This document shows positions 25,184 to 54,620 of a DNA stretch of 64,000 bases, one piece after another (position 1 is the first letter of the stretch; each line of letters starts with the position of its first letter). The translations under genes and the position numbers were made by a program. The stretch is from Paracyclopina nana (lineage: Eukaryota; Arthropoda; Copepoda; Cyclopoida; Cyclopettidae), in contig JAGUCH010000004.1 of the NCBI GenBank assembly GCA_019096065.1, positions 3,596,001-3,660,000 on the forward strand, written 5' to 3'. A model generated the notes under the pieces. The model did not search any database. It saw only the letters and a program-made list of their open reading frames with translations, and had not been told where the DNA came from.

Positions 25184-26640
25184 TCTTTCCCAACTCTCAC
25201 AAACAACTATGGTAAAATCATAAGTTCAATTAAATTGGATAATGTTTGTAGAGCAATTTTTGCTGCAGAGAGAAGATCACTTGGTTAAATAAAAGTATGC
25301 GCGCTATACGGCTCACATTGACTTGGCAAAGAACCTAACCCAAACTACTTACAACACGTAAGAATTATACAAATTGCTCTGATCACGCTGATCATAGTGA
25401 ACAAAATGGTCACCCAGAACACATTGTTTGTTCTGATCACTCTGATCACGCTGATCACAGTGAACAAAATGGTCACACAGAACACTCAGACTGCTGTGAT
25501 CACTCTGATCACGCTGATCACGCTGAACAAAATGGTCACCCAGAACACACAGATTGCTCTGATCACTCTGATCACGCTGATCACAGTTAACACACTGGTC
25601 CCACAGAACATGCTGATCACTCTGATCACGCTGATCACGCTGATCACGTTGATCACACTGATCACAGTTAACACACTGGTCCCACAGAACACACTGGTCC
25701 CACAGAACACGCTGATCACTCTGATCACTCTGATCACTCTGATCACGCTGATCACTCTGATCACGCTGATCACTCTGATCACGCTGATCACTCTGATCAC
25801 GCTGATCACTCTGATCACGCTGATCACTCTGATCGCGCTGATCTCGTTGATTGCTCTTATTACACCTGTCTTGGCTAGTACATTTTGGATTTTTAGAATA
25901 TGCTTATTTAACTAATTTGACTAAGTTTTGGTTGCATTTGTAGGCTGGCTCTGCAGACTTTGCCATTTTCGGCAAGCATGTGTCCCAATTGTCCAAAAAT
26001 AAGCCTATCACTTCCAATAACATATAGTTTTTAAAACGGTTCAGCGCAAAAGCGGCTCATTTTTTGGAGATAGTTAGCTACAATGACCCCCACTAGTTAG
26101 CTACAATGACCCCCACTAAAATTCAAAAATAAAACTTCAGTTAGTTCATAGTAAAATGACTAGGATGAACAGAAACGGAGATATAGCCATGCTAAAAGTT
26201 GATTACTACCAACTTGAATAATTACGCATAATAAGTTTGGCAGCAAATACCTCAATTTTGAGTACATTTTACAGACTTGCTTATAAAATAAAAAAGTTTG
26301 ATCCTCTTTTTTCAGATGGGGTCATTGCTATTAATAATCGCAAAATATTATAAACTGTAGGTGCTAGCCGTTTTTGAAAATTTTATGTTATGGGAAGCCA
26401 TAGGCCAGGATTTTCAAATTACTACCTAATGAACCTTAGAACAAAAGCTTTCAGAAAATGTATATTTTTGGGTGTTGAAAAGAGTTTGGGTTAGGACCTT
26501 CTTCAAGCCAACGTGGGCTGCAATTTAATCAACGAAAGTATCATTGGGTAAATTGAATTGATTTGTTCGTTAAATGGACTTTGAAAAAATCATCATTATT
26601 CCGAGTTCATCATGCGAGTAAGAAATATAAGGGACGGGAT
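25096..26640. repeat. Flanking duplication A1 (left copy)
   Basis: A direct repeat of about 1545 bases with its partner at 54341-55877. It begins inside the receptor coding sequence and runs through that gene's upstream region, including the minisatellite, to the edge of the left LTR. The first 1.34 kb is almost identical between copies. The last 0.2 kb carries about a dozen differences. Confidence 0.95.
25376..25862. repeat. GATCAC minisatellite, copy 1
   Basis: Tandem 9- and 18-base units of the type CTGATCACKCTGATCACT, with some longer variants containing AACAAAATGGTCACC and AACACACTGGTCCC. TGATCA palindromes recur every nine bases. Because the unit length is a multiple of three, it opens long spurious frames on both strands, which I do not annotate as genes. 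Confidence 0.95.
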
Positions 26641-27551
26641 GGTGTGCGACGGTCACACCCTCTGAAGCCTAGGATGGTTAGCATCGGCTTCATGGTCGCG
26701 GTACCGTTCGCAGCCTCCGGGTGCTGGCCGGATGTCTACCCGCCTTGGACCCAAAGCCGCAGCCTCGGTGCTCCAACTCTGGCGAGATACATCACATGGC
26801 AAGCTTCAGTGCTGTAGACCGGTGATTGGGCCTCCTACCCACGTCCTCAACGGCCTCAACAGCCTCAGACGAGGATGCATAACTGCCCAGGAAACCTCTA
26901 TACAAGTTATGGTCAAACAAAGTCAAACAGGGTTGTCTTATTCACTCAGCTTTTAACACCACACAAATTAATGGCAGCAAATACAAAGAAATAAGTACTG
27001 CAGTAAATATTCTTGTGGCCATCTTCTTCATGCCTCAGCACACTTTGGAGAACTTTGGTGGGACAATAGCAGGGCAGAGCTCACTCAATGGGCCATGTGC
27101 ACTTGGTCCATGTCTTGTTTCTCTGAAGTCCCCCATCGAACTCCCCGAGTCTTCTCCTTCTTCTCCACTCGATGCATTGCAGCAAGTTCCATCAGCTTCC
27201 ATCTGCTTCTCTCCGTTATTATGCAGCTGCAGGTCCTCTCTATATAGCAGCTAGCAACTCCTCCACACAATGGCTAGCAGCTTCTCCACTCAAGGTCAGG
27301 TGAATTGCCATAGGTAAGGCTCAACGCATAGGTAGTAGCAGCAGCAGCAACAACAATCAGAGAGTTGGAGGAGATGAAAAGGTGTTTTTTAAGAAAGGAG
27401 GTTTTGTGATTCTGAGGTGGTGATGTAGCGGTGAATGGGCAACCTTCCGGACTTCTGGCGGCTCCACGGGCTCCACGGTTTCCACAGGTTCCACTGGAGG
27501 GGTCCAATCAAGTCCTATTCTGGTCGTGACGTGCACCAGAGACATGATGTA
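26639..27551 (-). repeat. 3' LTR of the giant retroelement (left)
   Basis: A 913-base direct repeat of 53428-54340, with about three differences seen by eye (about 0.3%). It is GC-rich compared with the flanks. On the minus strand it has a TATATAG box about 310 bases in. The ends are not a clean TG...CA. The element reads right to left, so this is the 3' LTR. Confidence 0.93.
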
Positions 27552-27669
27552 CTTATTGCCCATCATTCCCCGGCCCTAACTTTTTCAGCTTTTGAAATAT
27601 TTTTTAAGCTCTAAAAATATAAAAAAGGTGTCATTTGTCGCATACATCACATTAAGGTTGATACAGTTA

Positions 27670-29529
27670 TTATACTAACGTCGCGCCTCCCAGGCCACTC
27701 ATTCGCACAGTAAGGCGCTGATTTTGATCAGCATCTTTCTTGCGATCTCCTCTATTGTAGCGAAACCGTGAACGGGACGTATTAGGTCTCACATAGCCTC
27801 CATCATCATAGCATCGGCTGCATACTCGCCGCCTTTTCCAAATCAAAATGCCCATACATGTGAATCCCAGTGCCGCAGACAATAGGCTCACCGTGAGGAT
27901 TATTTCCCAATTATTGAATAAACCTCCAAGTTCATCTTCAGGGAATTTTGTAAAGAACTTCACCATATCACTTTCCCAAGGAGAGTCCTCGTATCCAGTA
28001 CTTTGAGTTCCAAGGGAAACCTTGCAATTGCTAAGGATCTGGTAGGATCCTGGTTCCAATACCATCGAGTTCTTGAAGTCATTTAAACAAGTCCTATTAA
28101 TCATTGCACTTGAGACCAAATTTAAGAACCCTTTATAATTTGCACATCCCACATCAGTGAGCGTGTTAGTTTTAAGTGGTTCCAATTCACAGGCGTCAAA
28201 TGGGTCACCCAGAGCTAGCCCCAAAAGTACTTTAGCACAGTGTTGGACTCCTTCTGTCAAGTCAAAGTCCTTGTTTTCACACACGGTTAAATTATGGTCA
28301 TGAACGAAGCAATCACTATAGGTGGGTATTTCCCGAGACACGAACACTAGATCATTTCGGCGGGTCAAATACCTATCATGCAACAAGAATCCGTTTTTGC
28401 TTCGTGACACAATATGATATGTGACCTCTGGGGTAGGGTCCATTTCCTTATACCCGACTATTCCCTGAGTGACAAAATCTCCACTCTGCTCAGTATTCGC
28501 CAAAGGTTCATACACATTAGTAATGGTGGCCGCATTCCTGTCACTATTATGCGCCAGAGTTGGTATGCTGAACCGTGTGCCTGCCTGCCCAAAATTTCTG
28601 GCAAATTGCCCAACTGTGTCAGCATATGACAATACTTGCTGCAGATCATTTGGTATTAATCCAGACTTCAAAAAGACCTTGCTAAAACCTTTCAGTAGTC
28701 GAAAGGCCAAAGAAACTTTCGGTGGAACTCTCAGTGGAGTGGTATTTGCTATCATGCCATCGGTGAATTTTGTCGATTTACCTGATTCTGCTAAGGCCAT
28801 CACGGCGTTGTAGGCCTTTTCAAGGAAGCTTTTCCTCCCAGACAATTCAGATTTGACAAAGTCCTTATGGGTGATGACAAAGTCATTTTGGACACACATC
28901 GTTGCCTTCCCATCACTGTGTGGTGCATGGGCTTTAACCGAAGTCATGGTCTTCTGTCCTGGTCCCACAGTGAAATACCCCGTGATACACGGGTAACCTG
29001 CAATAATCTGATCGTCCGGTTTTTTCTCATACCCCACTTGGGGAAATGTGGTTTTTCCATCCAAGGACATAGGTACCTCATTGACAATCCGAAATTTCAC
29101 ACATAAAGTTACCTTAGGGGCAAGAGGGCTTTCCTTTGCAGTATAACGTAATAGTTCTAGAAAAACGTCCATGTCTTCATGAGTTTTAGGGGCAAATGGT
29201 ACAAACCCTTGACGTTTGGAACAAGCTTTGTCGATGGTGTTAGGGGTACTCTCTTCGCCAACTGCCAACATATTCCCAATATGGACCAAGTCCTCCTTGT
29301 CCTTAACTTCTTTTACCACGGTGTCAATATTATTCAGGACGCCAATTGTTGATTGCAAAAGGCCACTGTAATCCTTCGTATCTAACACCATAGCCTTTTT
29401 CACCATTCTAGGATGATGGACCACTCTAACTGGAACTAGGGCATGTCCAGAATGGCAAAGCGCCTCATCCAGTACAAACTGAGTATTTGGGTAGTTGGAT
29501 AGGCTCCAACCCCACAAAACAAAACTCAA
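27670..29529 (-). CDS. Envelope-like membrane glycoprotein of the retroelement
   Basis: A fossil part of the giant element. About 620 codons encode a Cys-containing ectodomain with N-glycosylation sites (for example NRTC, NLTV), a single membrane helix near residues 540-562, and a basic, Arg-rich cytoplasmic tail. This is type I membrane topology. Its place between the other frames and the 3' LTR is the env position. I do not recognise the glycoprotein family; capture from an RNA or DNA virus is possible but not shown. The upstream edge of the frame lies at the border of an inserted AT-rich TIR transposon, which separates it from its own leader region. Confidence 0.7.
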   Translation of the reverse strand: MSFVLWGWSLSNYPNTQFVLDEALCHSGHALVPVRVVHHPRMVKKAMVLDTKDYSGLLQSTIGVLNNIDTVVKEVKDKEDLVHIGNMLAVGEESTPNTIDKACSKRQGFVPFAPKTHEDMDVFLELLRYTAKESPLAPKVTLCVKFRIVNEVPMSLDGKTTFPQVGYEKKPDDQIIAGYPCITGYFTVGPGQKTMTSVKAHAPHSDGKATMCVQNDFVITHKDFVKSELSGRKSFLEKAYNAVMALAESGKSTKFTDGMIANTTPLRVPPKVSLAFRLLKGFSKVFLKSGLIPNDLQQVLSYADTVGQFARNFGQAGTRFSIPTLAHNSDRNAATITNVYEPLANTEQSGDFVTQGIVGYKEMDPTPEVTYHIVSRSKNGFLLHDRYLTRRNDLVFVSREIPTYSDCFVHDHNLTVCENKDFDLTEGVQHCAKVLLGLALGDPFDACELEPLKTNTLTDVGCANYKGFLNLVSSAMINRTCLNDFKNSMVLEPGSYQILSNCKVSLGTQSTGYEDSPWESDMVKFFTKFPEDELGGLFNNWEIILTVSLLSAALGFTCMGILIWKRRRVCSRCYDDGGYVRPNTSRSRFRYNRGDRKKDADQNQRLTVRMSGLGGATLV

Positions 29530-31412
29530 AATGAACCTGATTTAATCTTGATTTACTACGTATATTAAATCAGGTGTCTTGTAACAAGAATACTGATAAA
29601 AGCGTAACGCAACCGTTTCATAAAATTTTTCGCAAAACCTGATTTTTCAAAAATGGTTGTATCGACTATTTTTTATTTCTATTGTTGCTATTGCAATGTG
29701 CTGATATCAAATTCACTTTAAAATTTTTTATATTACTTATCGTTGTCTGAATAATTATTATTTACTTTTGAATAAATCCGGTTTTTATCTGGTTTAAATT
29801 GATTTCAACCACATTAAATACTTATTTGTTTTTGAATTTTTTTTTCAAATTTTTCTTTTCGGAGTTGTCTATTTATTACCTATTTATTGCCAATTATACT
29901 GATTAAATATACATTTAATATTGTTTTTTCACAAATATAATCAGTATAGTTAATGTAGTTGAAACTGATTACAAATACAATCTGTAAATGCTTTTTATGT
30001 GTATTTTATCTGAATTTAATGTCACTAATATACCATACCATTTATATTTTTATGTATTTATTAATCCCAATTAATTCAGTTGTTATTGTGTTTAATATAC
30101 ACTTCAATTATACTTTTGTCCCTTTAGCCATGGAGTGCATCAGGCTCAGGTCTTGCAAATAGGTGGAGAATAAATGAGCCAAAAATTTTCTGACTCACTC
30201 CATCACTAATTCTAGCTCATCAGACAAGAAGAAGTATGTTTTCAGTAATAAAATAAAATGACTGAATTGCTACAAGTCAGCAATCTTGCTCCATAAGATA
30301 TATATTTGAATAAAACTGAAGATCTCAGTTTTTCTTTGAAAATAAGAAGCATGACACTTTCTAACTCAGTTTTCATGTTGTTCTAAACAACATCTATTAA
30401 TGATGATTTTTGAAATCTTAAAGCCATTAAAAGTTATTGATAAGAACAATTTAGGAAAATTATTGAATTGCAAGCAGAGCCATCTCTGAACATTTTACTA
30501 AGTTGGATTTTAGTAGTGACTAATTAAATCAGTAGAATCTACATTTACACCTGATTTAATACACATATTGATTGTAGTGCCAATAATGTGTTGATGGCAA
30601 TTAGTGCAGAGTAGAAACTGTATTTAGAAGTGATTAAGAACATTGATTTTTTGCAATGACCCCAGGACAACAATATACATTAAATACTGACCTAGTAAAT
30701 CAGATAAATCTAGATGAAAACCTGATATAGTATACCTTAAAGATGCATTTGAAAAAGTCAATGAAAGACAATAAGTAGTGAGTAGGAATAGTAATTAGAG
30801 CTGATTAACAACTGCCAGAATTTGAAGGGACTTATGTGCCAGAATGTACATGAAATACTGGCCTAGTAAATCAGAGAAATCTACATAACAACCTGATATA
30901 GTATACAATTAATCAAAAGCAAACTAATTTTTTAAACAGACATAGTATACAGTTTTTTAAGTATTTGAAATACAAAAAATACTGATTTTATTGATGCAAT
31001 TTTATTAATAAAAATATTTTGACATACTGATTAAAAAAAAGGACGTTGAAATCAGTATTTTATCTGTTTACTACTGATAAAAAACTAAATAAAATGTGAT
31101 TCATAATTTGACAAATATCAAATAATGAACACATAAAATGAAGACCGGGATGCTTGATTAGTCATAAAATGGCAAAAAGTTATTAAAAAAATTAAGTATT
31201 TTGGAACAAAAAACATAACCAAAAAAGTACAAAATGTCAAATTTTAAAAATTCATAACTTTGGAAATAAAAATATCTGACGTAAATATTTGACATTGTAC
31301 ACATCTACACACACCATATTTGTAATTTATCACAAAAAATTTATAATTTATATGTATTTAATTTGCAACGGGGTTTACTACTGATTTACTACTGATTTTT
31401 TGTTTTGTGGGG
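29510..31412. mobile_element. AT-rich TIR transposon inserted in the retroelement (insert 1)
   Basis: 1.9 kb, very AT-rich and non-coding. Terminal inverted repeats are CCCCACAAAACAAAA and its complement, with AA on both sides as a possible two-base target duplication. Subterminal motifs of the CTGATTTAATAC / TTTACTACTGAT type recur throughout. A stretch near 30675-30730 is repeated near 30848-30905, a period of about 172. It shares end sequence and internal motifs with insert 2 at 40363-42642, so both belong to one non-autonomous family. Confidence 0.8.
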
Positions 31413-31698
31413 AAGTGCCAGGTCCCAGAAGGGTGAGTATGAATACCAATTCAAACGACATCTTACCAGCACAAATTCTGATCAGAAACTATATAGGCCC
31501 CAAGACCGCTAACTTTCCTTATAAACCCAGACAAGTGTGGGCACGCCACCTTGCTATGTCTAGACACTCTTTGCTTTTTGCCATTGGTTTTTATTATCAT
31601 AGCATGTCGACATGTATGGTAAAAAATTAAGAGTATTGGCCCACTACCAAGTATTTTATCAATATGTACAATTCGATTTTAAAGGGTAATTTCATTTT

Positions 31699-33075
31699 TC
31701 AGAACTGCCCAACAAATCCATTAATCGCCTCAGTGAATACCTTGATGTCGCTGGGGGTCATTTCCTCCATTTTAGTCTGGAGGAGATAGTTCACACGCTC
31801 CTTATTCTTATCGACTTTGGAGCGCTTAGCGTGCAATATGTCTGGTCCATTCGCTCCTGCGCCAAAAGGGCGCCCGCGAGCTACATCGGCGTACAGTCTA
31901 GGTCCTCGCCTTGGTTTTTGTTGCCAGGACTTCTCCACAAATGCGGCTAGCTTTTGGGGCCTGGCCCCGGCTGTGTACCTCACGCACTGCGGATATGTTC
32001 CAATGGCCCGATCAACAAACTGGGCTACCATGGTAGGCAGGAGTGCGGTCATGTCGATCTTCACGTCAAGTTTTCGTGGGGCTTGAGCCACACCATTGTT
32101 AAGGCAGGACGGCGGTCCCACATACAGTTGCAGGTAAGGTGACGTCAAATCATAGAACATCCGTGGATCCCAAAATGATGAGTCCAATGTTGGCATGATC
32201 TGAATGCAGCCTCGCTTGGTATAATGTTTGGAGACTACTACAGGGAGTTGAGCTCCACCCTGTCCACGAATTCCATGAACATAATACCCAACAGCTGTTG
32301 GGCTCTGGACGGCAGACCAACTTCTGACATTGGCCAACTTATGGACATTCTCGTCATATTCCATCTTGTCAGGCAAATTGTAGACTGGTAGATTGTCTAG
32401 CATCGGAAATATAACAAGGAAATCGGGAATCTCCCCACCTTTACTCACTGGCTCGATAATCAATTCAATGCAATCGAAGTTTTTCACCTTCAATGGCCTA
32501 CGGGCCTCGGTCCGTTCATAGGGTTCTCCATTTATCCGAATCGTCAGGTCAAAAGGCACCTCCTTTCCAACAGTCATGACCTCCTTCGTGGCTATCTTCA
32601 ACAGGCTTGCATCATAATGCTGCTGTATAGTAGCCCTAGTCCGGCTCGCCTCCCTCGTATAGGCCTGTAGCCCTTCCATGTGGGGAGGCCTGATCAAATC
32701 CTCAAATGGCAATGGGTACCCCAAACTGGAGGATACCCTTTCCAATGGGACCTCGAGGGGCTCCTCTTGGTCCTTGTGTCTAGTCGTCTGATTTTGAGCT
32801 TGGTTCTCATTATTGACAGTGGGCATGTTGCGATCCATAACTGGCTCATCGTCCTTAAGCAGCTCCCTAACTTCTTGTTCGTTGAATTCTCCAGTCTTAT
32901 CAGTCTCCATCATGGAGACCATTGCAGATTCTCCTTCAAGGGACTCAGTGATCAGGGACATCCTTAAGTTGTCAAGGCTGTTCAAGCTATCGCTCATTTC
33001 CAGACTGTTGCTATAAGAGCGTAAACTGCCCTTTTTATACGAATCCTTACAGGTATGCCCCACACTCTCGGGCAT
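31699..33075 (-). CDS. Unknown 458-codon protein of the retroelement
   Basis: An open frame inside the giant element. The N-terminal 120 residues are acidic and Ser-rich, and look disordered. Residues about 150-360 look globular, with beta-rich character (VPFDLTIRINGEPY, DFLVIFPMLDNLPVYNLP). The C-terminus is basic (QKPRRGPRLYADVARGRPF) and ends in a short helical segment. No signal peptide or membrane helix is seen. It could be a structural (matrix- or nucleoprotein-like) or regulatory product, but nothing I recognise proves this. It is transcribed divergently from the + strand gene cluster that starts near 33.2 kb. Confidence 0.6.
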   Translation of the reverse strand: MPESVGHTCKDSYKKGSLRSYSNSLEMSDSLNSLDNLRMSLITESLEGESAMVSMMETDKTGEFNEQEVRELLKDDEPVMDRNMPTVNNENQAQNQTTRHKDQEEPLEVPLERVSSSLGYPLPFEDLIRPPHMEGLQAYTREASRTRATIQQHYDASLLKIATKEVMTVGKEVPFDLTIRINGEPYERTEARRPLKVKNFDCIELIIEPVSKGGEIPDFLVIFPMLDNLPVYNLPDKMEYDENVHKLANVRSWSAVQSPTAVGYYVHGIRGQGGAQLPVVVSKHYTKRGCIQIMPTLDSSFWDPRMFYDLTSPYLQLYVGPPSCLNNGVAQAPRKLDVKIDMTALLPTMVAQFVDRAIGTYPQCVRYTAGARPQKLAAFVEKSWQQKPRRGPRLYADVARGRPFGAGANGPDILHAKRSKVDKNKERVNYLLQTKMEEMTPSDIKVFTEAINGFVGQF

Positions 33076-33361
33076 TTAAATGCGTGGGTTGTCCCTTTAA
33101 AAAAAAAACCCAAGGTCATTTTTTGTCTAGGTAAAAAAGAATAAGGTAACAGGACTTATGCCACTTCCTTATAAGATGGGCGCATGCGCGCACGCTCATC
33201 ATCTTATTGCACGGACATTCAACTTCCTAGGTCGCATGACTTAGCGAGGGTGCAACAGGCAGTTGCAACTCTCAGCTTTCACCTGCAGCCAATCACTCTC
33301 CCATCGGACTTCGTCCCAGTCGGTCCATTTTGTAATACTCCAGACTCATATTTTCTTAATC
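33076..33361. promoter_or_regulatory. Probable bidirectional promoter inside the retroelement
   Basis: About 290 bases between the divergent starts of the minus-strand 458-codon frame and the plus-strand cluster. It contains a GC-rich palindromic stretch (GCGCATGCGCGC) near 33180. No other role is visible. The promoter call is an inference from gene arrangement. Confidence 0.35.
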
Positions 33362-33637
33362 ATGGTATTGTTGGCCTGGGTCTCGCTAACTCCCGATGGC
33401 AGCTCAGCACAGGCTCCCACCGAGGCTACATCCAATTCACCCGCCGTGGATTCTGAGGTTATGCGCCCGATGGGCCCGTCACCTGATCTCCCTGAGGGTG
33501 ACATTCTCGATGTGGGGGCAAGGCCTGGCAGTGAGCCAGACCCTGTTGACCCGTTTGAAGTGGAGGTTTTTAATCCCCACGATTTGATGCCGGTGGTACC
33601 AAACAACTATCGCCCCGTATCCCCCCAGAGGGACTGA
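33362..33637 (+). CDS. Small Pro/Asp-rich secreted-type protein, antisense cargo
   Basis: 91 codons from an ATG at 33362. The start MVLLAWVSLTPDGSSAQA resembles a signal peptide with a cleavage site after Ala. The rest is acidic and Pro-rich. It lies opposite to gag and pol, only about 35 bases before the next plus-strand frame, so one transcript could carry both. Function unknown. Confidence 0.4.
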   Translation: MVLLAWVSLTPDGSSAQAPTEATSNSPAVDSEVMRPMGPSPDLPEGDILDVGARPGSEPDPVDPFEVEVFNPHDLMPVVPNNYRPVSPQRD

Positions 33638-33673
33638 GTCGATGAGATATTCAACTATCATCGGTATGGGATC

Positions 33674-34381
33674 ATGGGTTGGATCGGTCTTGGTGCCTCA
33701 ATCGGCATGGCTTTGGTAAGTTTTACCACAGTTGCCCATATTAATGTAATTTCCATCTGTCAATAATTGTCTTCAGATCCTGCTTGGTATGTTGACTTAT
33801 GGATGCGTGTGGGTATCTCGGTGGTGCCGTAGATACTGGACCATGTTCCGCGCGATTCGTGAAGAGGCCGCAAATAGAGAGGCCGTGGAAATGCAGCCAA
33901 CCAAGCCCAGTACCGAGCCTACGGCAGTTTTTCACTGCTGCACCCCAGATCTCAGGGCTCTGTCGCCTGTTTCAATCATGCGGGAACCGGACGTTCATTC
34001 GCTCCAAATGGTGATGGCTGCCATGGACCCCTACGGGACATTGCGCCGGAACCCCAGCGTCATGTCAGGCTTGGCTAATCTGTACGAGGTTCCCAATCCT
34101 AAAGGCTGGGTAAGATCCTATCAATTCATAAGCATCAAGTTACTTAATATTCTTTTCACGTACTTTTCCAGGTACCTGTCGCCGAAGGTTATGGGCGGCA
34201 GACCATGAAGAGGCGATCTCGTCGGGCTCGAGCCCGAGAGAATCGTCACTTGAACTCGGCAACGGAGTCCATTCCGGACAAAGAAGAAGTCAATGAAGCT
34301 GGACCTCTCTCAATTGAAGACGAGGACCAGGACTCGGCTGGATCAAAGGCTTCCCAAAACGTCAACAGCGATGCCAACTAA
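33674..34381 (+). CDS. Small membrane protein gene with two short introns, antisense cargo
   Basis: Open segments at about 33674-33715, 33777-34109 and 34172-34381 are separated by two gaps of about 60 bases with GTAAG donors and TTCAG or TTCCAG acceptors, and the frame is kept. The predicted product (about 190 residues) has an N-terminal hydrophobic segment, a Cys/Trp-rich juxtamembrane part, a middle region without known motifs, a strongly basic patch (KRRSRRARAR) and an acidic tail. AATAAA lies at about 34669. The introns match those of host genes in this window. It sits antisense to the retroelement genome, so it is cargo rather than a standard retroviral gene. Family unknown. Confidence 0.55.
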
Positions 34382-34849
34382 GGATCGCCACGAACTTGCG
34401 AGACGAAGACCACTCTCTTTTCGCACGCATTTTCTGTAACTTTTGCACTTTGTCCTTCTTATCGCGTGCGAATTCTCACTTTATAACTTGCATTTCCCGC
34501 AGTTTACGCAGACTTTTCCACTTTTTCGAGATCTCGCAAACTTTTCGAGGCCTCGCAGACTTTTTAAAGCCGGCTTTTTGCACTTGCACTCGTCTTGTTT
34601 TTATTTTGATCTCAAAGCTTCCAATATACTCGAGTATATACTATAGTACTTGTATTCTATATATATGTAATAAAGAATTCAAATTCAAGTGGGGTAGTAG
34701 GTATTAGCGAAGCCGTTACCTTCATCTAACAGCGCTCCCAGACTTCACGTAGAGGCGCGTAATAAAAAGAGGCTTTTTCACGTAAAATTTGGCCGATTTC
34801 AGACCGGATTTGTCTGGTAGCGCGCCTTGTTTACTAAAAAGTTCAAAAC

Positions 34850-37290: not shown

Positions 37291-37294
37291 CTAC

Positions 37295-37366
37295 GTATAT
37301 ATACTCCCCCCTCCACAATTTTCTGCATTTTGTGGGAACTGCAGAGAGCAGTCACACAAAATTCAG
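37295..37366 (+). promoter_or_regulatory. TATA promoter and untranslated first exon, antisense cargo
   Basis: TATATATA at about 37297, then a short exon-like stretch ending in AATTCAG with a GTAAGT donor at 37367. The next open frame starts 75 bases later. Confidence 0.45.
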
Positions 37367-37440
37367 GTAAGTATGTTTTCGAATCTTTAACTATAAAAGA
37401 TGTAGCGGCTAGGCTAATTTTATTCAATTTTATTTGAACT

Positions 37441-39320: not shown

Positions 39321-39325
39321 AGTGT

Positions 39326-45600: not shown

Positions 45601-48600
45601 TGTGCGAGGTACCGCTCTCAGTTTCCATGCAACTGGCAAGGAATATATACGAGCTGCTAGTCTATGAGTAAATGCATCTTTACCAGTAAATGAACTAGCA
45701 AGTACGCTAGCGATTGATAAGCAATCAGTAACTATTACCAACCGCTCATAGGCGAATAGTATGCTTTTAAAATGATTTATCATTGTTAAAACTCCTAATG
45801 CTTCACGTTGAAATGAGTGGTATGAGAGGCAAACCGATAGAGGAAAGCGTGCGCTGTGTGCACCAACACACACAGCTTTACCATCCTCATTTACCTCCAT
45901 TAATAATGCCGAGGTACTTATTACCCCAGAATCAACCACTAAATAACCTTCTTTAAAACGTGGCAATGCCAGCGACATACCTGTTTTAATCTCGTCTATT
46001 ACTTTATAGAAACATTTTTCTTGGAAAGCAGTGAAGGTGAACTTTCCTGTTTTTCCTTGTGCTGTCTGTAATACATCAAGCAGTGGAGCTGTGTATGTAG
46101 CCATATTGGGGCAGTACTGGCTTAACCAGTTTGTCATTCCAATAAACTTTTGCAGCTGTTTCTTGGTTGTAGGAATAGGGAAATCATCAAATGCAGACCT
46201 GAATTTATCGGGCATTCGCATAGTCATAATCCCATTTTCATCAATAGATATTAGGTGCCCTAAGACTGTAGCTTCTTTAACACCTAATTGGGTCTTTTTA
46301 ATTTGTAATAGGGCATTTAAGTCCTTGAGGCTTTGAAACAACTTCCTCAAATCACCTAAATGTCGTATGTAATCATCCAACGTAGCAGGCCTAGGCTTGC
46401 CAGGGTTCTTACAGGCCACGACCAAATCGTCTACATATACACATGTAAAGGGCAATATCTCAGGGTTAAGGGCCTGTTGGAGGAGCTCTGCGAACATTCT
46501 CGGAGCAATGGCGATCCCTTGTAGGCATGACTTACTTTTCAAAAAGACCGATCTATATATACTGCGAGGGGACGTTACTGCAAAGCAGCACATATCAGCA
46601 CTATCAGAGTCCACAGGTAGGTTATCGTATCCGGATGTTACATCGAAAGATGACATCAAACATGAATTAGATAACATCCCTAGCAAGGTAGGGATAGGCG
46701 GCACTATGTGCTCCGAAGTCGTAAATATCAGATTTTTATTAAAAGATGTTAAGTCAACTAATAGCCGAGGCTTGCGTTGCTTCATAGGCAGCTTTTCATC
46801 ATTTGGCCTTGAAGTCAAGAAACAAGGGCAGGCCGAGTACCTATTAAGTGACTTATCCACAATCTCAATTAATCCAGATGACAGCATTAAAGCTATTTTA
46901 CGGTCAACCTGGGTAGTTTCATACTCTGACATGTTGAATACTTTTGGCACCAAGGGCTTATCATCCTTTAGCTGGAACTTCATCGGTTCGACATTCCATA
47001 GCCTATAAGATCTAGGATCTTCAGAGAAGATAGTCTTATATTCCAATAAGAGGTCCCTAAAGTCCTCCCTAACTTCATCCGGAATGTGTTCCAAATCCAT
47101 GTTCAAGATCGTTTCCGGTTTTAATGGGAATGTGTACCCTGCCACTCCATTCAAAACACGGAGAGGGTCAAATTCACTTGGAAATTTCAAAAGGAGATTA
47201 TAAACCTCATCATATAGTTTTTGGTTATTTCTCTCATCCTTAGAAAGCTCCAGGCTAGCTGATACAAGATCTAGTTCAGACGGACTCTTCAGAACTGTTT
47301 GTCTGACACTGGTATCGACAATAGGACCCTCATATATAGTAGTGAAACTTTTAAGTGGCACTTTGATGCCCAAGTCCTTTGCCAAGCAAGGTTTGCATGA
47401 GCAACCCGGTGGTTCAAGTACAAATGGTATAAATTTACCAAATTTTGTCTTTATATCCTCTTTGGTAAGGTCATCAGGGTACATTTGTAACCCAGATAAC
47501 ACTAGCAATGCAGCGGTGGTTGCCATACATAGTGGGTCACCTACATGTACGTCACCATCCATAAGTGTTCTAATCCACACATCGTCAGCCACATTTTGGT
47601 ACCGTAATTGACCAATTATTATGTACATAAGAGTGGTTAGGTAGCCAACATTCTCTGCATGTTCGCTAGGGACATGGAATATTAACTCAACATTGTTGGA
47701 CAACTTAAACATGATACCATGAGCTCCAAGAACATTTAGTTCAAAATACTTATCTAGTTCATTTCTTTGATAAGCAAGTGGGTAATTCTCATACTCATGT
47801 ATCATCATAGTTATTATGACCCTATCCATCCCAGTGAGGTAGGATTCAATGGGACACAAAGCAATGGTCATACATGGTGGGCAAATATACTTATATTTTA
47901 GCCATACTACTTTAAGTTTATTTACCATCATATTCATCTTTATTACAATGCGCTTTTGTTCGCCAGACAAAAGTTTATGTCCTGGAACAATAACAGCCCA
48001 CGGTAATTCATCCCATTTTTCTCGTTTTATAAACTTGCTAATTATTACATCAGTTATCTCCTCATAACCATCACTTTGGTTAGATGAGATAAAAACGTAA
48101 TTTCCTTTTCTACTAATCAAAGGCTTGTGACTTCCCCTTAGTGGCTCATAGGCATTAAAAACATGCATATCAGTAAAGGAAAGACCATTTATATCAGTAA
48201 ACTGCACAATTACGTGCGAATCTAAATAATTGCAGTAACATGACTCCATTTCATGCTCCAGGGCCTTTAAACTAATGTTAGCCACATGGGCTGCGACCGT
48301 ACTCTTAAATTTCTGTTTCTTGACAATCCTGGCTCGCCCAATCACTGCATGTGCATTTAAGTAGATGGGATCCTCAGTATTATTCCCAATATTTACTGGG
48401 AAAGTACCTTTACGAGTGACTGCAGTAAGTGCCCCCTCAGAGGTCACTCCGCGGTACTCGTTACTAGGCATAAAGTTTAAGTACTTATCCACCAATCCGG
48501 AATAAACATTTTTCTGGTGATGAGTACGACCAAGTTCGTCATCTTCGTCAGAGTCAGAATCTATTTGAATGTCATTACTGATGACCGGTAAATCATGAGG

Positions 48601-49608
48601 TAAACTAGCCATGGTGGTCACTTCTTCTCCAGGGAGCAGAGTGATCCCTTCATTTATTGCCACTGGGTAGAAAGCCTCTTTTGATAGTAAGAGTGGAATT
48701 TTCTTATGTTTAGATTTTCCAGGGAAATCCATAAAGTGCTTTCCATCTTTACTAGTCATTCGGACATTATTGTCCACTAATAACGAGTTTCCTATCATTA
48801 ATAGTGTATCGCAATCAGATACAAGGAAAACAGCCTGTCTGATTAAAACACGATTTCCAAATGCAACTTGAATAGAGACAGCTTCATTCCCTGGGAATTC
48901 TTCCCCATTAAAGTTCTTAATTACATAATTAGTTTCGACCCGAGGCAGAGTGTAACCAATTTTGTCTTCGATCAGTTTTACAAGGGTGCGTGATATTATC
49001 TGCACCATTGCTCCACTGTCAAATAAAGCGTGCAAACGTATTTTTCCAGTTATCTCCACTGGTATAAAATACCTTTCACAAACATTATGTAGCTTTAATG
49101 AGTATATACTCAGCATGTCATCTTCAAGTTCCGGATTCGGTAAAGGTTCAAAATGTGTTACTGGTTCTGCTTCATTAGCATTTACTGAGGCCAGATATGT
49201 AACGATACCATCATTACTACAAGTTTTTTGCTCATCATTCGTGCTACCTTTTATAAAGTAGTACCATAAAGCTATTATTGCTCCACTACAGATTACTGTA
49301 ATTGGCCAATAATTCCAACCAAATAAGCAATATTGACACATCGTTATTGCAATCAGTATTATGCTAATCTCAATCACAGTCATAGTATGCTGAGGAACAA
49401 ACCGACTTTTTCTACCCCTTATTGCAAGGACCAGAGCCTTTTCGTCCTCACTTCCACGAGTCATAATTTCAGCATTTTTTACAGATTGCTCCTTTAAATA
49501 ATCAAAGTAAACTCGTCCTACTTCTTTGTTACATTCTCCCCTCATAAACGAAGGTAAAATGTAACTATCTTTATCTTTCTTATTGGGATTTTTTGTACTT
49601 GGTACCAT
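42619..49608 (-). CDS. pol: Pol polyprotein of the retroelement (protease, RT, RNase H, integrase)
   Basis: About 2330 codons, open throughout. Two hydrophobic helices lie near residues 77-120, before the retropepsin-like protease (FDSGA at 196-200). Reverse transcriptase follows, with FDVTSGYDNLPV and YVDDL (about 1058-1062) and LGHLIS, then RNase H (about 1200-1350). An HHCC-type zinc site (HLLHNHLG ... CMHC) leads into a DDE integrase with LADNGAQL (about 1705) and AYAENAIRI, and a GPY/F-like module. A further 450 residues after integrase are acidic and disordered, and unusual. The frame starts 6 bases after gag ends, in the same frame. The RT is Ty3/gypsy-like. The 3' end of the frame runs into insert 2. 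Confidence 0.92.
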   Translation of the reverse strand: MVPSTKNPNKKDKDSYILPSFMRGECNKEVGRVYFDYLKEQSVKNAEIMTRGSEDEKALVLAIRGRKSRFVPQHTMTVIEISIILIAITMCQYCLFGWNYWPITVICSGAIIALWYYFIKGSTNDEQKTCSNDGIVTYLASVNANEAEPVTHFEPLPNPELEDDMLSIYSLKLHNVCERYFIPVEITGKIRLHALFDSGAMVQIISRTLVKLIEDKIGYTLPRVETNYVIKNFNGEEFPGNEAVSIQVAFGNRVLIRQAVFLVSDCDTLLMIGNSLLVDNNVRMTSKDGKHFMDFPGKSKHKKIPLLLSKEAFYPVAINEGITLLPGEEVTTMASLPHDLPVISNDIQIDSDSDEDDELGRTHHQKNVYSGLVDKYLNFMPSNEYRGVTSEGALTAVTRKGTFPVNIGNNTEDPIYLNAHAVIGRARIVKKQKFKSTVAAHVANISLKALEHEMESCYCNYLDSHVIVQFTDINGLSFTDMHVFNAYEPLRGSHKPLISRKGNYVFISSNQSDGYEEITDVIISKFIKREKWDELPWAVIVPGHKLLSGEQKRIVIKMNMMVNKLKVVWLKYKYICPPCMTIALCPIESYLTGMDRVIITMMIHEYENYPLAYQRNELDKYFELNVLGAHGIMFKLSNNVELIFHVPSEHAENVGYLTTLMYIIIGQLRYQNVADDVWIRTLMDGDVHVGDPLCMATTAALLVLSGLQMYPDDLTKEDIKTKFGKFIPFVLEPPGCSCKPCLAKDLGIKVPLKSFTTIYEGPIVDTSVRQTVLKSPSELDLVSASLELSKDERNNQKLYDEVYNLLLKFPSEFDPLRVLNGVAGYTFPLKPETILNMDLEHIPDEVREDFRDLLLEYKTIFSEDPRSYRLWNVEPMKFQLKDDKPLVPKVFNMSEYETTQVDRKIALMLSSGLIEIVDKSLNRYSACPCFLTSRPNDEKLPMKQRKPRLLVDLTSFNKNLIFTTSEHIVPPIPTLLGMLSNSCLMSSFDVTSGYDNLPVDSDSADMCCFAVTSPRSIYRSVFLKSKSCLQGIAIAPRMFAELLQQALNPEILPFTCVYVDDLVVACKNPGKPRPATLDDYIRHLGDLRKLFQSLKDLNALLQIKKTQLGVKEATVLGHLISIDENGIMTMRMPDKFRSAFDDFPIPTTKKQLQKFIGMTNWLSQYCPNMATYTAPLLDVLQTAQGKTGKFTFTAFQEKCFYKVIDEIKTGMSLALPRFKEGYLVVDSGVISTSALLMEVNEDGKAVCVGAHSARFPLSVCLSYHSFQREALGVLTMINHFKSILFAYERLVIVTDCLSIASVLASSFTGKDAFTHRLAARIYSLPVAWKLRAVPRTEVEVVDVLLNKYHQTPEGETVFYAPYSIAGQITKDIYSNKYPLPDAIKDKVLTTQELLTHVYDTLVNSGTMSKTLLQKRLHCLNDKWVDMIGTKPPFVHDDTSTLLHAKHDDEEFLEEEILSKISHSFHGEADFDSPVNHIENNLRVDTVTVKRRISPHLPGITRNLLIKLQQNCEETQKIINLIMLSPPEKVPLDVAVKYRVLDGALLVIRKNVKLPFSVATNTKVYMSMPNCVYLMACIHLLHNHLGSKKTNTLFTQSMYSTYSARISRIIIGACMHCALYRQANTRFVGKGRFRIPTQPWELVMIDLAKFDETLVKGSSAKDLLVFVDVYSKMIIAKPLLDAKYKQVANAMEEVISLFGVPKTLLADNGAQLTSNKALQRLVDRYKIKELCHYRTLSPYKHSNAYAENAIRIIRSALVLNSNSYNMKLCDVFKTSIYAINNRPLTYLAYTDDKGVKITPTPFSLFFDKMPTYHLGRDVFEILSESEDKIHKAEWRQRMREYDLEEQFHLEKMKATERPSFKPEIGSLVLVIKHPINKQRYKFMDDLFEVIDIGQHSTVTVKPYLYDGLTREVSLDHVKLYRFHELYRFLPEKLSNLLKRPYTPEEILRKKARNEVIEFLEGAAPESHEYSLRNRTKASSIVASQSSLISQSSATDTEPSAIHQTYKRSGSILMQKAASLFKPSDILRIQEENKQLVHKQWEQYDRKKLEEKYLADNADNNIVRKEASDSLSDTDTDDFIERAIALSANTGPDEAFYEDMLALSQRGPPTFAEMAQQERLYPNLPSVKPDHISTPDHSNVSEGTLAGVSPVKWAFRGQYRDQHEPAIPESPEKYHTPDQSISETPNKDNDNIEEVVEKAASFIAPSKFDTDLESLSAGLESMQLAIPTEPFGGNTQEGENESSDSDDTTTLYYTARRNLRRTPLTKSIKQNVQRAIDIVRRQLELSPRKRPPSPPIDNPMEGPSAPKPEIYGTEGGEPQVRYTVPNQTNDP

Positions 49609-49614
49609 TATTGA

Positions 49615-52179
49615 TTATTGTTTACGAGCAGGTCGCGTCTTCCAACACTGTTCTCCCCTAAACTCAAGGTGCAATCCTTTACACAATGGGCACAATGTAC
49701 CATCGTTTCTAATCGAGGTCAAATTTGTGTTCGGATAATTCGAACACTGTGTAGCGTAATGCAATTGGTTGCAGAACAAGCACCCACCAGTCTGAAGAGG
49801 GTTTCCTTCAGGCAACTTAGATGTATCTATGTTGAAAGTTTTTCCCAGCCTATTTATTTTCTCGGATGGTGATTCAGCTTTCATCATAGCTACTTCAACA
49901 GCTTGCCTACTCAATTCAAAATTTGCTCGAGCCAACTCGCTTTGTAGCTCATTTATTATTTTAGCACTTCGTTGACTACGGCCAGAGGCTGCCGACATAG
50001 TGCTAGCACTATCTAACACCTCTTCTTCAGTAGCTTCAACCATAGCAATTCTAGGTTTGGCACGCATATTGGGTACCATTGGCAGCCTCTCCTCTTTATG
50101 AGCCCTATCCAGGTCCCTTGGCACATAAGTACCTAGGTCACTACCAATTAGGTTCATCATGATGTTGTAGGCGTGCAAACTCCTAGCGGGTATATTCGCT
50201 CTCAGCAGATAGTCGTTGTATTTGTTTACTAACGACTGGTAATTCTGAGGCCAATGACGTCCTAGGAGTGCAAAACCATCAGAGATGGCTTCAGAGACTG
50301 CATGAGCATCTCCGCCATCTCCAATGGTTGTGCTATGTATCTTCATTCGTAGTCGAAGAATTGACTTAAGTGTGGCAGTGAAGCACTCAGTAGGCTTCCG
50401 GATCATCTCCTGAATGAGGAAGTATGGGTCCTCTTTACGTACAAACTGAGTGTAATTAAAGATATCTTGCCATAGCAATTCCATACCATCTTTTCCTTCT
50501 CCAGCCATCCCCTTAAAATACTCACTAGTATTCTGGGATGAAGCCTCACACATGGCTGTTAACAAGGCTGCATGAGACCAATGCTGTCTGCCAGCCTCGT
50601 TTGCCATATAGTCCAAAAAATTTATTATATTCTCAGCAGTTAATGAGGAACTATGTAGGTCAAACTTTTTGGTGTATTTGTGCCTAATCTCCTTCATTGA
50701 CTGTGAGCTTGCATACTTAACATGACCATTCGTAGGTACAGCAATGTAACCTCTCATGGTGGTCGGATCATAAATGCTCCTAGAAGTGTCAGCTGATACT
50801 CCAGCGGCTACACTTATCTCAGGGGTCTTTAAGTAGCCTTCTGCCAATATTTGCTTTTGGAGAGAAGTAAACTCGTCCCTTGTGCTAAGTACACTAAAGA
50901 GCTTCTGCATCTCAATCATTTTCTTTCCTGAGGATAAGTTTGGGTCAACCATCTGAAGGATTACTCGTCGGGCTGATTCCACATCCTTAATCTCATCAGT
51001 GTTAATTAACTTAAGCCTTTCTGAAATTGGAGCAGACTCATCGTAGATGACGTCAGTTTCCGGAACCATTCTTTCCTTCGTCGCAGCATCTACTATGCTT
51101 AAGGTTCTTTCTAGATTCTTACTGAAAATAGACTCTACTTTAGCCCCAACCATGTGTTTAGCCGTGATTTGTGCAGAGGCAATAATTTTATTTGCCGTGC
51201 TCGCATCATGCATTTTCGTGTAGTAAGCTTTTACCGTGTTCAATTCCTGAATATTCAAATGGCCTCCTGACAACATCTTTTGTACCATCCTATGTACAAC
51301 TTCCATTGGAGGAAGCGTGATTGAATTAGTCAAGTTATGCAAATCACGAGGATTCATCTTAGTCGAGGTCAGAACTGACTTATTTTGGCCATCCAGGTCA
51401 GCTCCTGTAGTGAACTCATGATGGTTAGTCCCAGGTGGGCTAGCTATCGAGGACATATCGGGAGCAGCAGAACTCGTCTCATTATTAGGAAAATGTACAT
51501 TCTGACCGGGGTTTTTCCGTGGTTTCAGGTCAAGCGGTTCCCTTAGGAAATAATCACTTTGTAGCCCGTAAAGCCTCGCTACAATAGCAAATCCATCTCC
51601 AAATGTCCGTATCTTTTGCCAATTCCTTGATATCAATGTTGCAACCATTTCATGCGTTCCTAGCATTGAACTAGTCAGGAAGCTACCATCAAATTCTTGC
51701 GTCCGCTGTGTAGTTTTCTTTTCCTCAATACAAGTTAGGAACTCATCCAGGCCAAAACAAATGCATAACAAGGCACATGTAGTGCTTGTTAATGAAATAG
51801 GGTCCAGCGCGTCGATGTATTTAACCACATTTACAACTTGGCCTACTGGGTCCTTAAGGGGCATAGTTCCGATGATTGTCTTAATATGGTCATCCAAAGG
51901 TCTAATTGGCTCCCTAGGGACAAGTACTATTTGAGTCCTATCCCATACAGCTGCTACTTGTGCTTGAGTTACTGTGACAAACTCTAGTGCTTCAGGGTAA
52001 GCAACGTGTGGTATAAACCTTTGCAACTCAGCTCTGCTATTCCCATTCGGAGTGCATTGGGATAAGTACCCTTGAAAAGTGTCCTCATTAATCCCAAGAT
52101 GGTTTAACAATCGCTCCTTTACTTTCGTAACTTCCTCAGCCAGAGTAGGTCCAGCGATCCTAGAATCCTGATTAGCCAT
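49615..52179 (-). CDS. gag: Gag polyprotein of the retroelement
   Basis: About 854 codons, open. The long N-terminal and central part is alpha-helical and capsid-like (for example near 540-720). A Ser-rich stretch and coiled coil lie near 760-800. The C-terminus has two zinc-knuckle-like sites: CLFCNQLHYATQC, a CCHC with C-x2-C-x3-H-x4-C spacing, and CPLCKGLHLEFRGEQC. It is larger than most gypsy Gag proteins. Pol follows directly in the same frame, so read-through or re-initiation could link the two products. Confidence 0.85.
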   Translation of the reverse strand: MANQDSRIAGPTLAEEVTKVKERLLNHLGINEDTFQGYLSQCTPNGNSRAELQRFIPHVAYPEALEFVTVTQAQVAAVWDRTQIVLVPREPIRPLDDHIKTIIGTMPLKDPVGQVVNVVKYIDALDPISLTSTTCALLCICFGLDEFLTCIEEKKTTQRTQEFDGSFLTSSMLGTHEMVATLISRNWQKIRTFGDGFAIVARLYGLQSDYFLREPLDLKPRKNPGQNVHFPNNETSSAAPDMSSIASPPGTNHHEFTTGADLDGQNKSVLTSTKMNPRDLHNLTNSITLPPMEVVHRMVQKMLSGGHLNIQELNTVKAYYTKMHDASTANKIIASAQITAKHMVGAKVESIFSKNLERTLSIVDAATKERMVPETDVIYDESAPISERLKLINTDEIKDVESARRVILQMVDPNLSSGKKMIEMQKLFSVLSTRDEFTSLQKQILAEGYLKTPEISVAAGVSADTSRSIYDPTTMRGYIAVPTNGHVKYASSQSMKEIRHKYTKKFDLHSSSLTAENIINFLDYMANEAGRQHWSHAALLTAMCEASSQNTSEYFKGMAGEGKDGMELLWQDIFNYTQFVRKEDPYFLIQEMIRKPTECFTATLKSILRLRMKIHSTTIGDGGDAHAVSEAISDGFALLGRHWPQNYQSLVNKYNDYLLRANIPARSLHAYNIMMNLIGSDLGTYVPRDLDRAHKEERLPMVPNMRAKPRIAMVEATEEEVLDSASTMSAASGRSQRSAKIINELQSELARANFELSRQAVEVAMMKAESPSEKINRLGKTFNIDTSKLPEGNPLQTGGCLFCNQLHYATQCSNYPNTNLTSIRNDGTLCPLCKGLHLEFRGEQCWKTRPARKQ

Positions 52180-53406
52180 TCTTATCTTGTAAAAAGCGTG
52201 ACGGAGTCACACTGAGTAATTCTTATCTCTTAGAGGTGCAACGGAGTCACACACAATATTCTAGTCTTAGTACACTACTGTGTGTACTAAATTCGGCAGT
52301 ACCGAATTAAAAGCTATACGCTGTTCAAAGCACAGGGAAGCTTGTCCTAATTACTACGCCGCGTCAAGTGACACAGAGAAAAAGGTTGCAATTACTAAGC
52401 TCGTTTATTTATTTTTTGTCAAGGCTATGAGCGGCCAAGACAAAACACACACACACACACGCACAGGTACACTCACTTATTGTATTATAAAGAAAGGTTT
52501 AAGGTTTAGCACTACTGGTGCTACAGGTGGAAGGGTTTTTCTAAGTTCTTCTGAGGTCTCTGAAACAAAGGTGCATCAACTTTTTACGCAAAAAAGGTAT
52601 GCCACTTCGCCAACCAGTGTCGACTCAGTGAATGAAAAATAATTTTGCCCACTCCTCCTCGAGTTGCGGGCCGGCCAACCTTCCCTGTGCCCTCGGCATC
52701 TTGTCCAAGGTTAGCCAGTTTTTTGGGCCCCCAAACACGCATATTCCTTTGTGGCTCCCACGCTGGCTCCATGCATGGCCTATTTGGGGTTCTTTGACCC
52801 TCAGCGGGGTCATGGATTACATCATCTTCTTCCATCTGTGTGGCCAAACCCACGGACGAGACCCACTAGTGTCGCAACACTCTTGCGCTCACTCGCCCCA
52901 TTATGGATAGGCAACAGAGGCTCAGGTCGCAACCTGCACCTTGGCTGGCTTTCCGGCTGCCATGGCACCCATACTCCAAGCTATGCCATGCGGAGCCTGC
53001 ACGCATGCATTCACCTCCGGGAAAGACAGTGTCATTGTTACTTTGTGTAGGCCCATCATCATAACAATGGTCCATGGAAGACATCATCAACGGGCTGGTG
53101 GTACGTCACGGCCTGTACCTTCTTGCACTCCCCGCGCGCCAGTTCCAACCCGCCAACGGCATCAATGCGCAATTTGGGTCTAAGGGAATCTAAAGCCTAC
53201 GCACCACATAGGCCCAAATGCCATCGGAGTGACCCCCATCGGCTCGTCAGCCTTCGGGATTTTGTACTGTATTAGACACACCCTGATCGCAATCAGCGTG
53301 CGGCCCAACCTGCGCCGCAGAGCAGGAATCCTGATCCACACCAAGACATTTTCCGGGACTTCATTGTATTTTGGTCATCAAACCTTTAGGAGAGAAAGTG
53401 GCCTTC
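52180..53406 (-). other. Leader between primer-binding site and gag
   Basis: About 1.2 kb. The gag-proximal part has repeated ACGGAGTCACAC motifs near 52200-52255 and a CA dinucleotide run near 52446-52462. From about 52640 the composition turns GC-rich, like the LTR. It would hold packaging and translation signals of the element; none can be named. Confidence 0.5.
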
Positions 53407-53425
53407 AATCCCTCCGGGGCCTCCA
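53407..53425 (-). promoter_or_regulatory. Primer-binding site, tRNA-Thr type
   Basis: On the minus strand, TGGAGGCCCCGGAGGGATT starts 2-3 bases inside the 5' LTR. The usual eukaryotic tRNA-Thr 3' end (…AATCCCAGCGGGGCCTCCA, from memory) is complementary to 17 of the 19 bases, including the first 11. This fixes the orientation of the element. Confidence 0.75.
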
Positions 53426-53427
53426 AA

Positions 53428-54340
53428 ATGGTGTGCGACGGTCACACCCTCTGAAGCCTAGGATGGTTAGCATCGGCTTCATGGTCGCGGTACCGTTCGC
53501 AGCCTCCGGGTGCTGGCCGGATGTCTACCCGCCTTGGACCCAAAGCCGCAGCCTCGGTGCTCCAACTCTGGCGAGATACATCACATGGCAAGCTTCAGTG
53601 CTGTAGACCGGTGATTGGGCCTCCTACCCACGTCCTCAACGGCCTCAACAGCCTCAGACGAGGATGCATAACTGCCCAGGAAACCTCTATACAAGTTATG
53701 GTCAAACAAAGTCAAACAGGGTTGTCTTATTCACTCAGATTTTAACACCACACAAATTAATGGCAGCAAATACAAAGAAATAAGTACTGCAGTATATATT
53801 CTTGTGGCCATCTTCTTCATGCCTCAGCACACTTTGGAGAACTTTGGTGGGACAATAGCAGGGCAGAGCTCACTCAATGGGCCATGTGCACTTGGTCCAT
53901 GTCTTGTTTCTCTGAAGTCCCCCATCGAACTCCCCGAGTCTTCTCCTTCTTCTCCACTCGATGCATTGCAGCAAGTTCCATCAGCTTCCATCTGCTTCTC
54001 TCCGTTATTATGCAGCTGCAGGTCCTCTCTATATAGCAGCTAGCAACTCCTCCACACAATGGCTAGCAGCTTCTCCACTCAAGGTCAGGTGAATTGCCAT
54101 AGGTAAGGCTCAACGCATAGGTAGTAGCAGCAGCAGCAACAACAATCAGAGAGTTGGAGGAGATGAAAAGGTGTTTTTTAAGAAAGGAGGTTTTGTGATT
54201 TTGAGGTGGTGATGTAGCGGTGAATGGGCAACCTTCCGGACTTCTGGCGGCTCCACGGGCTCCACGGTTTCCACAGGTTCCACTGGAGGGGTCCAATCAA
54301 GTCCTATTCTGGTCGTGACGTGCACCAGAGACATGATGTA
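53428..54340 (-). repeat. 5' LTR of the giant retroelement (right)
   Basis: 913 bases, nearly identical to 26639-27551. On the minus strand a TATATAG box lies at about 54029-54035, the likely start of element transcription. The outer end abuts the second copy of the host duplication directly, with no short target duplication of its own. Confidence 0.93.
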
Positions 54341-54428
54341 TTGAAATGGATGCACAGCTTGATGAAATCAATGCTGTGATAACGTAGTTCAAAGTCAGCA
54401 AAATGCGAGCAGTGAGACCCAGCTCCAT
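54341..54428 (-). pseudogene. 5' fragment of the seven-transmembrane receptor gene
   Basis: An exact copy, as far as I can see, of the first 29-30 codons of the receptor gene at 25096-25183. It is cut off by the LTR and cannot make a receptor. Its promoter copy is intact, so it could drive transcription into the retroelement. Confidence 0.85.
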
Positions 54429-54620
54429 TCTTTCCCAACTCTCACAAACAACTATGGTAAAATCATAAGTTCAATTAAATTGGATAATGTTTGTAGAGCA
54501 ATTTTTGCTGCAGAGAGAAGATCACTTGGTTAAATAAAAGTATGCGCGCTATACGGCTCACATTGACTTGGCAAAGAACCTAACCCAAACTACTTACAAC
54601 ACGTAAGAATTATACAAATT

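Follow-up and report, generated by a model that had tools for sequence, protein, structure and literature searches.

The window analysed here, a 64,000-nucleotide stretch of the genome of the copepod Paracyclopina nana (C4:3596001-3660000), contains at positions 26640-54340, on the minus strand, one copy of a multi-copy retroelement bounded by long terminal repeats (LTRs). Comparison of its copies in the searched genome, which comprises 92 Mb in 10 contigs, shows that the order LTR-gag-pol-[noncoding]-AS2(antisense)-AS1(antisense)-ORF-X-env-LTR, in which ORF-X is a conserved open reading frame (ORF), env is envelope-like and AS1 and AS2 are putative genes on the opposite strand, forms one unit that has been copied recently and often by retrotransposition. 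A giant Ty3/gypsy-like element with an integral antisense module and with the gene roles proposed below is, with high probability, the best explanation of the whole. The initial annotation of this stretch had described a giant env-bearing lineage with a multi-gene block, which agrees with the many copies, their conserved borders and their matching target duplications.

Copies of the element and place of the block

Self-comparison of the window places the LTRs at 26639-27551 and 53428-54340, with 99.67% identity (3 mismatches in 913 bases, in agreement with the 913 bases and about 99.7% given earlier), while the LTR of other copies is about 926 bp long, reads TGGTGTGC...GCCCATCA in the direction of the window and has TG...CA ends, which were fixed by comparing 17 other LTR pairs. 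A candidate primer site beginning with TGG lies 3 bases past the LTR. Among the best 40 of 127 candidates, which were scored in a genome search with the LTR, all are full or nearly full length; besides the pair of the window, 17 LTR pairs were assembled and four LTRs were left single. Twelve of the 17 other pairs span 23,100-23,550 bp and five span 29.0-35.8 kb, and 16 of them have identical 4-bp target duplications. Paired LTRs have no mismatch in 13 of the 17, with a range of 0-3 when small gaps are set aside, and three mismatches in the window copy, so that insertion is recent. The element measures about 23.2 kb where it is free of other elements; the 27.7 kb of the window copy are due to inserts of 1.9 kb in env and 2.3 kb in pol, which total 4.18 kb, in line with the 4.2 kb first subtracted to leave about 23.5 kb. 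The lone pair that lacks a matching duplication is probably a tandem, since its left LTR (882909) is preceded by element-internal sequence. At C4:860000-906000 two copies apparently stand in tandem with one LTR in common.

Env matches were listed at 40 places, and the stretch from env to pol was taken from 20 of them. The block, which had been singled out in the window, is found in the same order and at the same borders in all 20 of these other copies, not gag-pol-env alone, with internal gaps in copies L011 (ORF-X), L015 and L020 (both AS1). The reverse transcriptase (RT) offers a second count. A search with the AS2 exon, in which all 82 candidates were scored, yielded 80 rows that fall at 79 loci, and a query from family C gave no new place; the RT matches come from 106 scored candidates out of 369, so that RT totals are lower bounds, and their 107 rows became 84 loci after second fragments were merged and three rows at 25-27% identity were dropped. 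At 76 of the 79 AS2 loci an RT is found within 16 kb, in the direction expected and on the other strand, the exceptions being C8:6615979, C6:6501187 and C5:3003734, and AS2 is present at 76 of the 84 RT loci, the other eight being seven of family D and one fragment of family B. By identity, the AS2 loci belong to family A (56), family B (15) and family C (7, all paired with an RT), with one intermediate.

Two observations weigh against the block as a constant part of the element. Nineteen of the 20 sampled copies had been matched to part of the block beforehand, so that their count is not independent of it, and the RT-based count is for this reason given more weight. The seven RT loci of family D (66-68% identical, such as C6:1149722 and C8:5341270) have no AS2, and neither ORF-X nor env was detected by eye at family C or D loci in the genome match lists; the antisense module is thus not universal, as family D has neither AS2 nor ORF-X or env matches. 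The AS2 exon is nevertheless old in the lineage, because it is common to three families in which RT identity is about 100, 87 and 51%, and capture of the block from a virus, proposed at first as a possibility, is not supported by this distribution as a recent event; an ancient viral origin is conceivable. A host origin of AS2 was also considered and is countered by the RT in place at nearly all AS2 loci.

Nested insertion, in which a gag-pol-env element of ordinary size was hit by a separate mobile element carrying antisense genes, retains almost no probability: nesting does occur at the window copy, which holds two younger inserts, but the block keeps the same borders in all 20 other copies, is present in three families, has a fixed orientation to the RT and accompanies most RT loci, and it lies within separate insertions that have 4-bp duplications of their own. 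A mis-join in the assembly has as negligible a chance, although the right end of the window copy is odd, with an LTR 14 bases short and a 1.54-kb flank on both sides, since this end lies outside the block and the block recurs in every other copy sampled. For the block, both are excluded by the comparison of copies.

The features of the window copy are the following.
26640-27565, minus strand: 3' LTR, about 926 bp, TG...CA, placed by comparison with 17 LTR pairs
27670-29508, minus strand: env-like type I glycoprotein, 612 amino acids (aa) remaining in the window copy, one transmembrane segment (TM) near the C-terminus
29510-31414, no strand: insert 1, 1905 bp, short inverted ends, lies between the env signal peptide and the remainder of env
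31699-33075, minus strand: ORF-X, 458 aa, strongly conserved, core 172-342 modelled with low confidence as a p53/Grainyhead-like beta sandwich
33362-34381, plus strand: AS1, exons 33362-33715, 33777-34109 and 34172-34381, predicted single-pass membrane protein, about 298 aa from the coordinates
34850-35553, plus strand: AS2, exons 34850-34876, 34947-35102 and 35161-35379, stop 35380-35382, 3' exon from 35444, AATAAA at 35548
35176-35178, plus strand: in-frame TAG of AS2, in exon 3 before the TM part
35600-39320, no strand: no coding signal, about 3.7 kb, in 20 copies (some with gaps)
39326-40363, minus strand: C-terminal piece of pol split off by insert 2, ratio of nonsynonymous to synonymous substitution rates (dN/dS) 0.14-0.64
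40364-42642, no strand: insert 2, 2279 bp, short inverted ends, internal tandem repeats, absent from 20 other copies
42619-49614, minus strand: pol, in the frame of gag after its TAA, with two predicted TM, protease, RT, RNase H and integrase, C-terminus cut by insert 2
49615-52206, minus strand: gag frame, 863 aa, one CX2CX3HX4C zinc knuckle, TAA end
53429-54340, minus strand: 5' LTR, without its outermost 14 bases in the window copy

Putative antisense genes AS1 and AS2

The central opposite-strand block of the initial annotation stands in part: the antisense genes AS1 and AS2 are supported by sequence, while about 3.7 kb of the block are without coding signal. The introns of both are of the GT-AG type and 58-70 bp long. 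In AS2, the ATG, the three donors, the first and third acceptors, the in-frame TAG and the stop are kept in 21 of 21 copies and the second acceptor in 20, and dN/dS in the antisense frame is 0.17 for exon 2 and 0.33 for exon 3. A family B copy has the four-exon plan of family A together with AATAAA, and a family C copy has the start, the introns and the TM exon as in A. In copies of all three families, exon 3 begins with a few codons followed by an in-frame UAG and then by a conserved TM frame, and the nine bases around the UAG are invariant in 21 of 21 family A copies. Two mechanisms are possible, because the UAG with its following G also reads as a splice acceptor, and AS2 probably yields a short and a membrane-anchored form, either by readthrough of the UAG or by choice between two close acceptors. 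The predicted protein is single-pass, with a Thr/Ala/Pro-rich outer part and a basic stretch after the TM, as judged by eye.

AS1 has exons with GT-AG borders and a frame that is continuous over introns of about 60 bp, and its three antisense stretches, which lie in alternating frames, have dN/dS of 0.22-0.41; for AS1, ORF-X and the noncoding stretch the ratios compare the window with six of the 20 copies. The low ratios of AS1 and AS2 point to purifying selection on both. By eye, its protein has a part rich in Pro and acidic residues, a hydrophobic segment spanning the junction of exons 1 and 2, a Cys/Arg cluster and a tail that reads LYEVP or IYDVP (IYDVL in a family B frame). An open stretch of 137-207 aa extends across the conserved exon 1 end in 18 of the 20 other sequences, the exceptions being L016, where the frame continues in another reading, and L020, which is deleted there. 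Identity to the window over 33415-33915, within AS1, is 63-68% in 16 copies, 79% in one and 92-98% in three, in contrast to 88-98% over 34415-34915. At least two strongly differing versions of AS1 thus occur within otherwise similar copies, and old versions have presumably been shuffled among young copies by recombination.

Several points speak against AS1 and AS2 as genes. On the sense strand, open frames cover the greater part of AS2 exon 2 (34802-35092) and exon 3 (35158-35400), with dN/dS of 0.23 and 0.54, and the one that mirrors exon 3 likewise has a match in family B (55%, 76 bits). The sense frames that mirror AS1 have dN/dS of 0.35-0.51, as is common for paired frames; AS1 of the window has a premature stop in exon 1, in a copy whose pol is also split and whose env has lost its signal peptide; and AS1 is recognised in families B and C by its place, its plan and one weak match of 28 bits. 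The two antisense frames scanned, 33750-34208 and 34947-35552, gave no significant Pfam match, including TRP28 (PF04195), and both genes are inferred from sequence. These points could fit a conserved cis-acting RNA region or a constraint on the sense strand, with introns that arise by chance. Such a non-coding reading is quite improbable, since dN/dS is lower on the antisense frame in each exon, the antisense match is the stronger one in family B (67%, 93 bits) and in family C (48-49 bits, where the sense strand reaches about 27 bits at most), and the 21 copies share the ATG, donors, acceptors, stop and poly(A) signal, bar one acceptor in one copy.

If AS1 and AS2 are genes, they would form a divergent pair with ORF-X and env, with transcription of ORF-X/env and of AS1/AS2 diverging from the gap of about 290 bp at 33076-33361. 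A retroelement with introns in sense orientation would lose them from its genomic RNA. Intron-containing genes can persist in antisense orientation because the genomic RNA is sense and antisense splice signals are not removed from it, so that the introns of AS1 and AS2 would be unseen by splicing and kept through copying. Such an element would have its artificial parallel in the antisense-intron reporters that serve to detect retrotransposition. A giant endogenous-retrovirus lineage with all of these properties together, namely a divergent pair with a p53/Grainyhead-like factor and env in sense, intron-bearing membrane genes in antisense and a UAG switch in AS2, is a tentative and rather doubtful picture.

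ORF-X, env and probable roles of the proteins

Of the two sense frames first listed without assignment, 31699-33075 (ORF-X) is a real and conserved frame, with dN/dS of 0.03-0.16, while 39326-40405 is the end of pol, because insert 2 splits pol. The env-like ORF, which was recognised as an envelope-like glycoprotein from the start, contains 15 Cys, four sites for N-glycosylation and a single TM, which is C-terminal; a signal-peptide-like N-terminal start is seen by eye in env of 19 of the 20 other copies and is missing in the window, because insert 1 cuts it off. Identity between families B and A is 46-49% for ORF-X and 43-45% for env, and in a family C piece an acid-rich sense frame begins at the place of ORF-X.

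The most likely roles are those of membrane accessory proteins for AS1 and AS2 and, for ORF-X, that of a nuclear DNA-binding protein which regulates the element. The assignments of env and ORF-X are weakened by the lack of relatives. Neither ORF-X nor env has a significant sequence relative in Pfam, PHROG or PDB (the PDB search did not cover the antisense genes), ORF-X giving a PHROG match below significance, and no relatives of either were confirmed in viral contigs. The single-sequence model of env is unusable, with a predicted local distance difference test score (pLDDT) of 33. The model of ORF-X is poor overall (mean pLDDT 44, predicted template modelling score 0.41), with fold matches under the safe level of the tool and a p53-like fold that sequence profiles do not support, and a search of BFVD with it gave no match at E 0.001 or better. 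If the fold holds, ORF-X would be a rare p53-like regulator coded by a retroelement.

AS1 and AS2 could instead be short fusogens similar to the fusion-associated small transmembrane (FAST) proteins, or receptor or immune decoys, that aid spread from cell to cell. Their predicted single-pass topology is consistent with this, as are the outer part and the basic post-TM stretch of AS2, and elements of the Drosophila MDG1 group, which belong to Metaviridae, use such small single-pass membrane proteins (PMC11952523). In that article, the sORF2 products of this group have 63-107 aa, lie in sense, as do all the insect candidates, usually have an N-myristoylation motif and come from elements without env. 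Here, one copy each of families A, B and C starts AS2 with MAGF, MAPF and MSFI, without the MGxxxS/T motif, which is also absent from two Drosophila FAST-like members (PMC11952523), and the element already holds an env-like gene. A fusogen or decoy role is on balance unlikely, and that of membrane accessory proteins in a broader sense is preferred.

Gag, pol and class of the element

Gag and pol, described as open in the window, form a single frame with one TAA between them and an ATG two codons after it, and pol is reached by readthrough or reinitiation, given the lone TAA, the common frame and the nearby ATG. The 2331-aa pol frame matches Pfam models in the order protease (about 184-279), RT (981-1120), RNase H (1195-1306) and integrase (1654-1729), of which the weak protease match and that of RNase H fall below the model cut-offs. 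Several other copies have one uninterrupted pol frame of 2669 aa. Two predicted TM segments stand ahead of the protease at the start of the pol frame (49250-49380, minus strand).

The nearest RT among solved structures is that of Ty3 (E 1.9e-24), followed by 8r0s (5.8e-14), 7kse (1.5e-10) and 7o0h (1.9e-9). By this comparison with solved RTs, by the domain order and by the LTRs and target duplications, the element is a giant endogenous-retrovirus-like element of Ty3/gypsy (Metaviridae-like) type. The spacing of its gag knuckle, CX2CX3HX4C, also occurs in BEL/Pao; no BEL/Pao-type pol domains are among the Pfam matches to E 1.

Comparison with known elements

Tas of foamy viruses is an element-coded transactivator with an internal promoter, and ORF-X with the divergent gap suggests, by analogy only, a similar pair of transactivator and internal promoter. 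The antisense genes HBZ and ASP have promoters in the 3' LTR and overlap sense genes. HBZ of human T-cell leukaemia virus type 1 and ASP of human immunodeficiency virus type 1 are, like AS1 and AS2, antisense coding regions in env-bearing retroelements (PMC10186651), but AS1 and AS2 appear to start internally and overlap no known sense gene.

Burro of planarians (PMC6431247) is also an animal Ty3/gypsy-like element of more than 20 kb with env homology and extra domains. Its env lies in frame between gag and pol inside one ORF1 polyprotein of 4873 aa, with apoptosis- and ubiquitin-type domains, whereas the present element has separate frames for pol, ORF-X and env, the last near the 3' LTR, and its extra genes are predicted to be antisense and spliced. 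The plant elements Retand, Grande and RIRE2 (PMC11963269, PMC7264820) resemble the present element as Ty3/gypsy elements with a long region between pol and the 3' LTR that has antisense ORFs, of which Grande gene23 has its own antisense promoter. The antisense ORFs of Retand mostly code for a TRP28 domain and no sense ORF with a TM is described there, unlike the two putative intron-bearing membrane-protein genes found here together with env and ORF-X. LTR elements of bdelloid rotifers (PMC5408684) have extra ORFs, the ORF3 types, that are env-like or short and TM-bearing, and antisense spliced genes were not found in the available part of that source. CERV of the Caenorhabditis elegans element Cer1 (PMC10309623) was looked at as a candidate parallel of ORF-X only. 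Spliced antisense membrane-protein genes would be an accessory strategy, very unusual for an element of this type, for which a partial survey of the literature found no animal precedent, nor among the giant animal and plant elements any with two such genes.

Elements of more than 20 kb probe the limits of reverse transcription and packaging, and the repeated copying of as much as 23 kb is demonstrated by the dozens of copies whose LTRs are almost identical.

Noncoding stretch, inserts and flanks

From about 35.6 to 39.3 kb no open frame with a low dN/dS is found, and no Rfam family reaches its gathering score in 26600-54400. A 22-nt motif, GCATTCCAGCTNGGCCTTGANG (with 3 mismatches or fewer), occurs six times at 35825-37022 and 4-6 times in each of the 20 copies, and it is found nowhere else in the window, in none of 20 single-base shuffles and in none of the family B or C pieces. 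Inserts 1 and 2 are present only in the window copy among the copies compared (20 others).

A flank of 1.54 kb stands on both sides of the element, at 25094-26638 and 54341-55877, with 98.6% identity, next to the right LTR that is 14 bases short. This has the look of a duplication of about 1.5 kb that arose when the element inserted, perhaps spanning two homologues, or of an assembly join between haplotypes. Within it, 25377-25851 and 54622-55087 have repeats offset by about 63 bases, with frames open on both strands. The frames that flank the element encode C2H2 zinc-finger, PRP39 and galactosyltransferase-like proteins.
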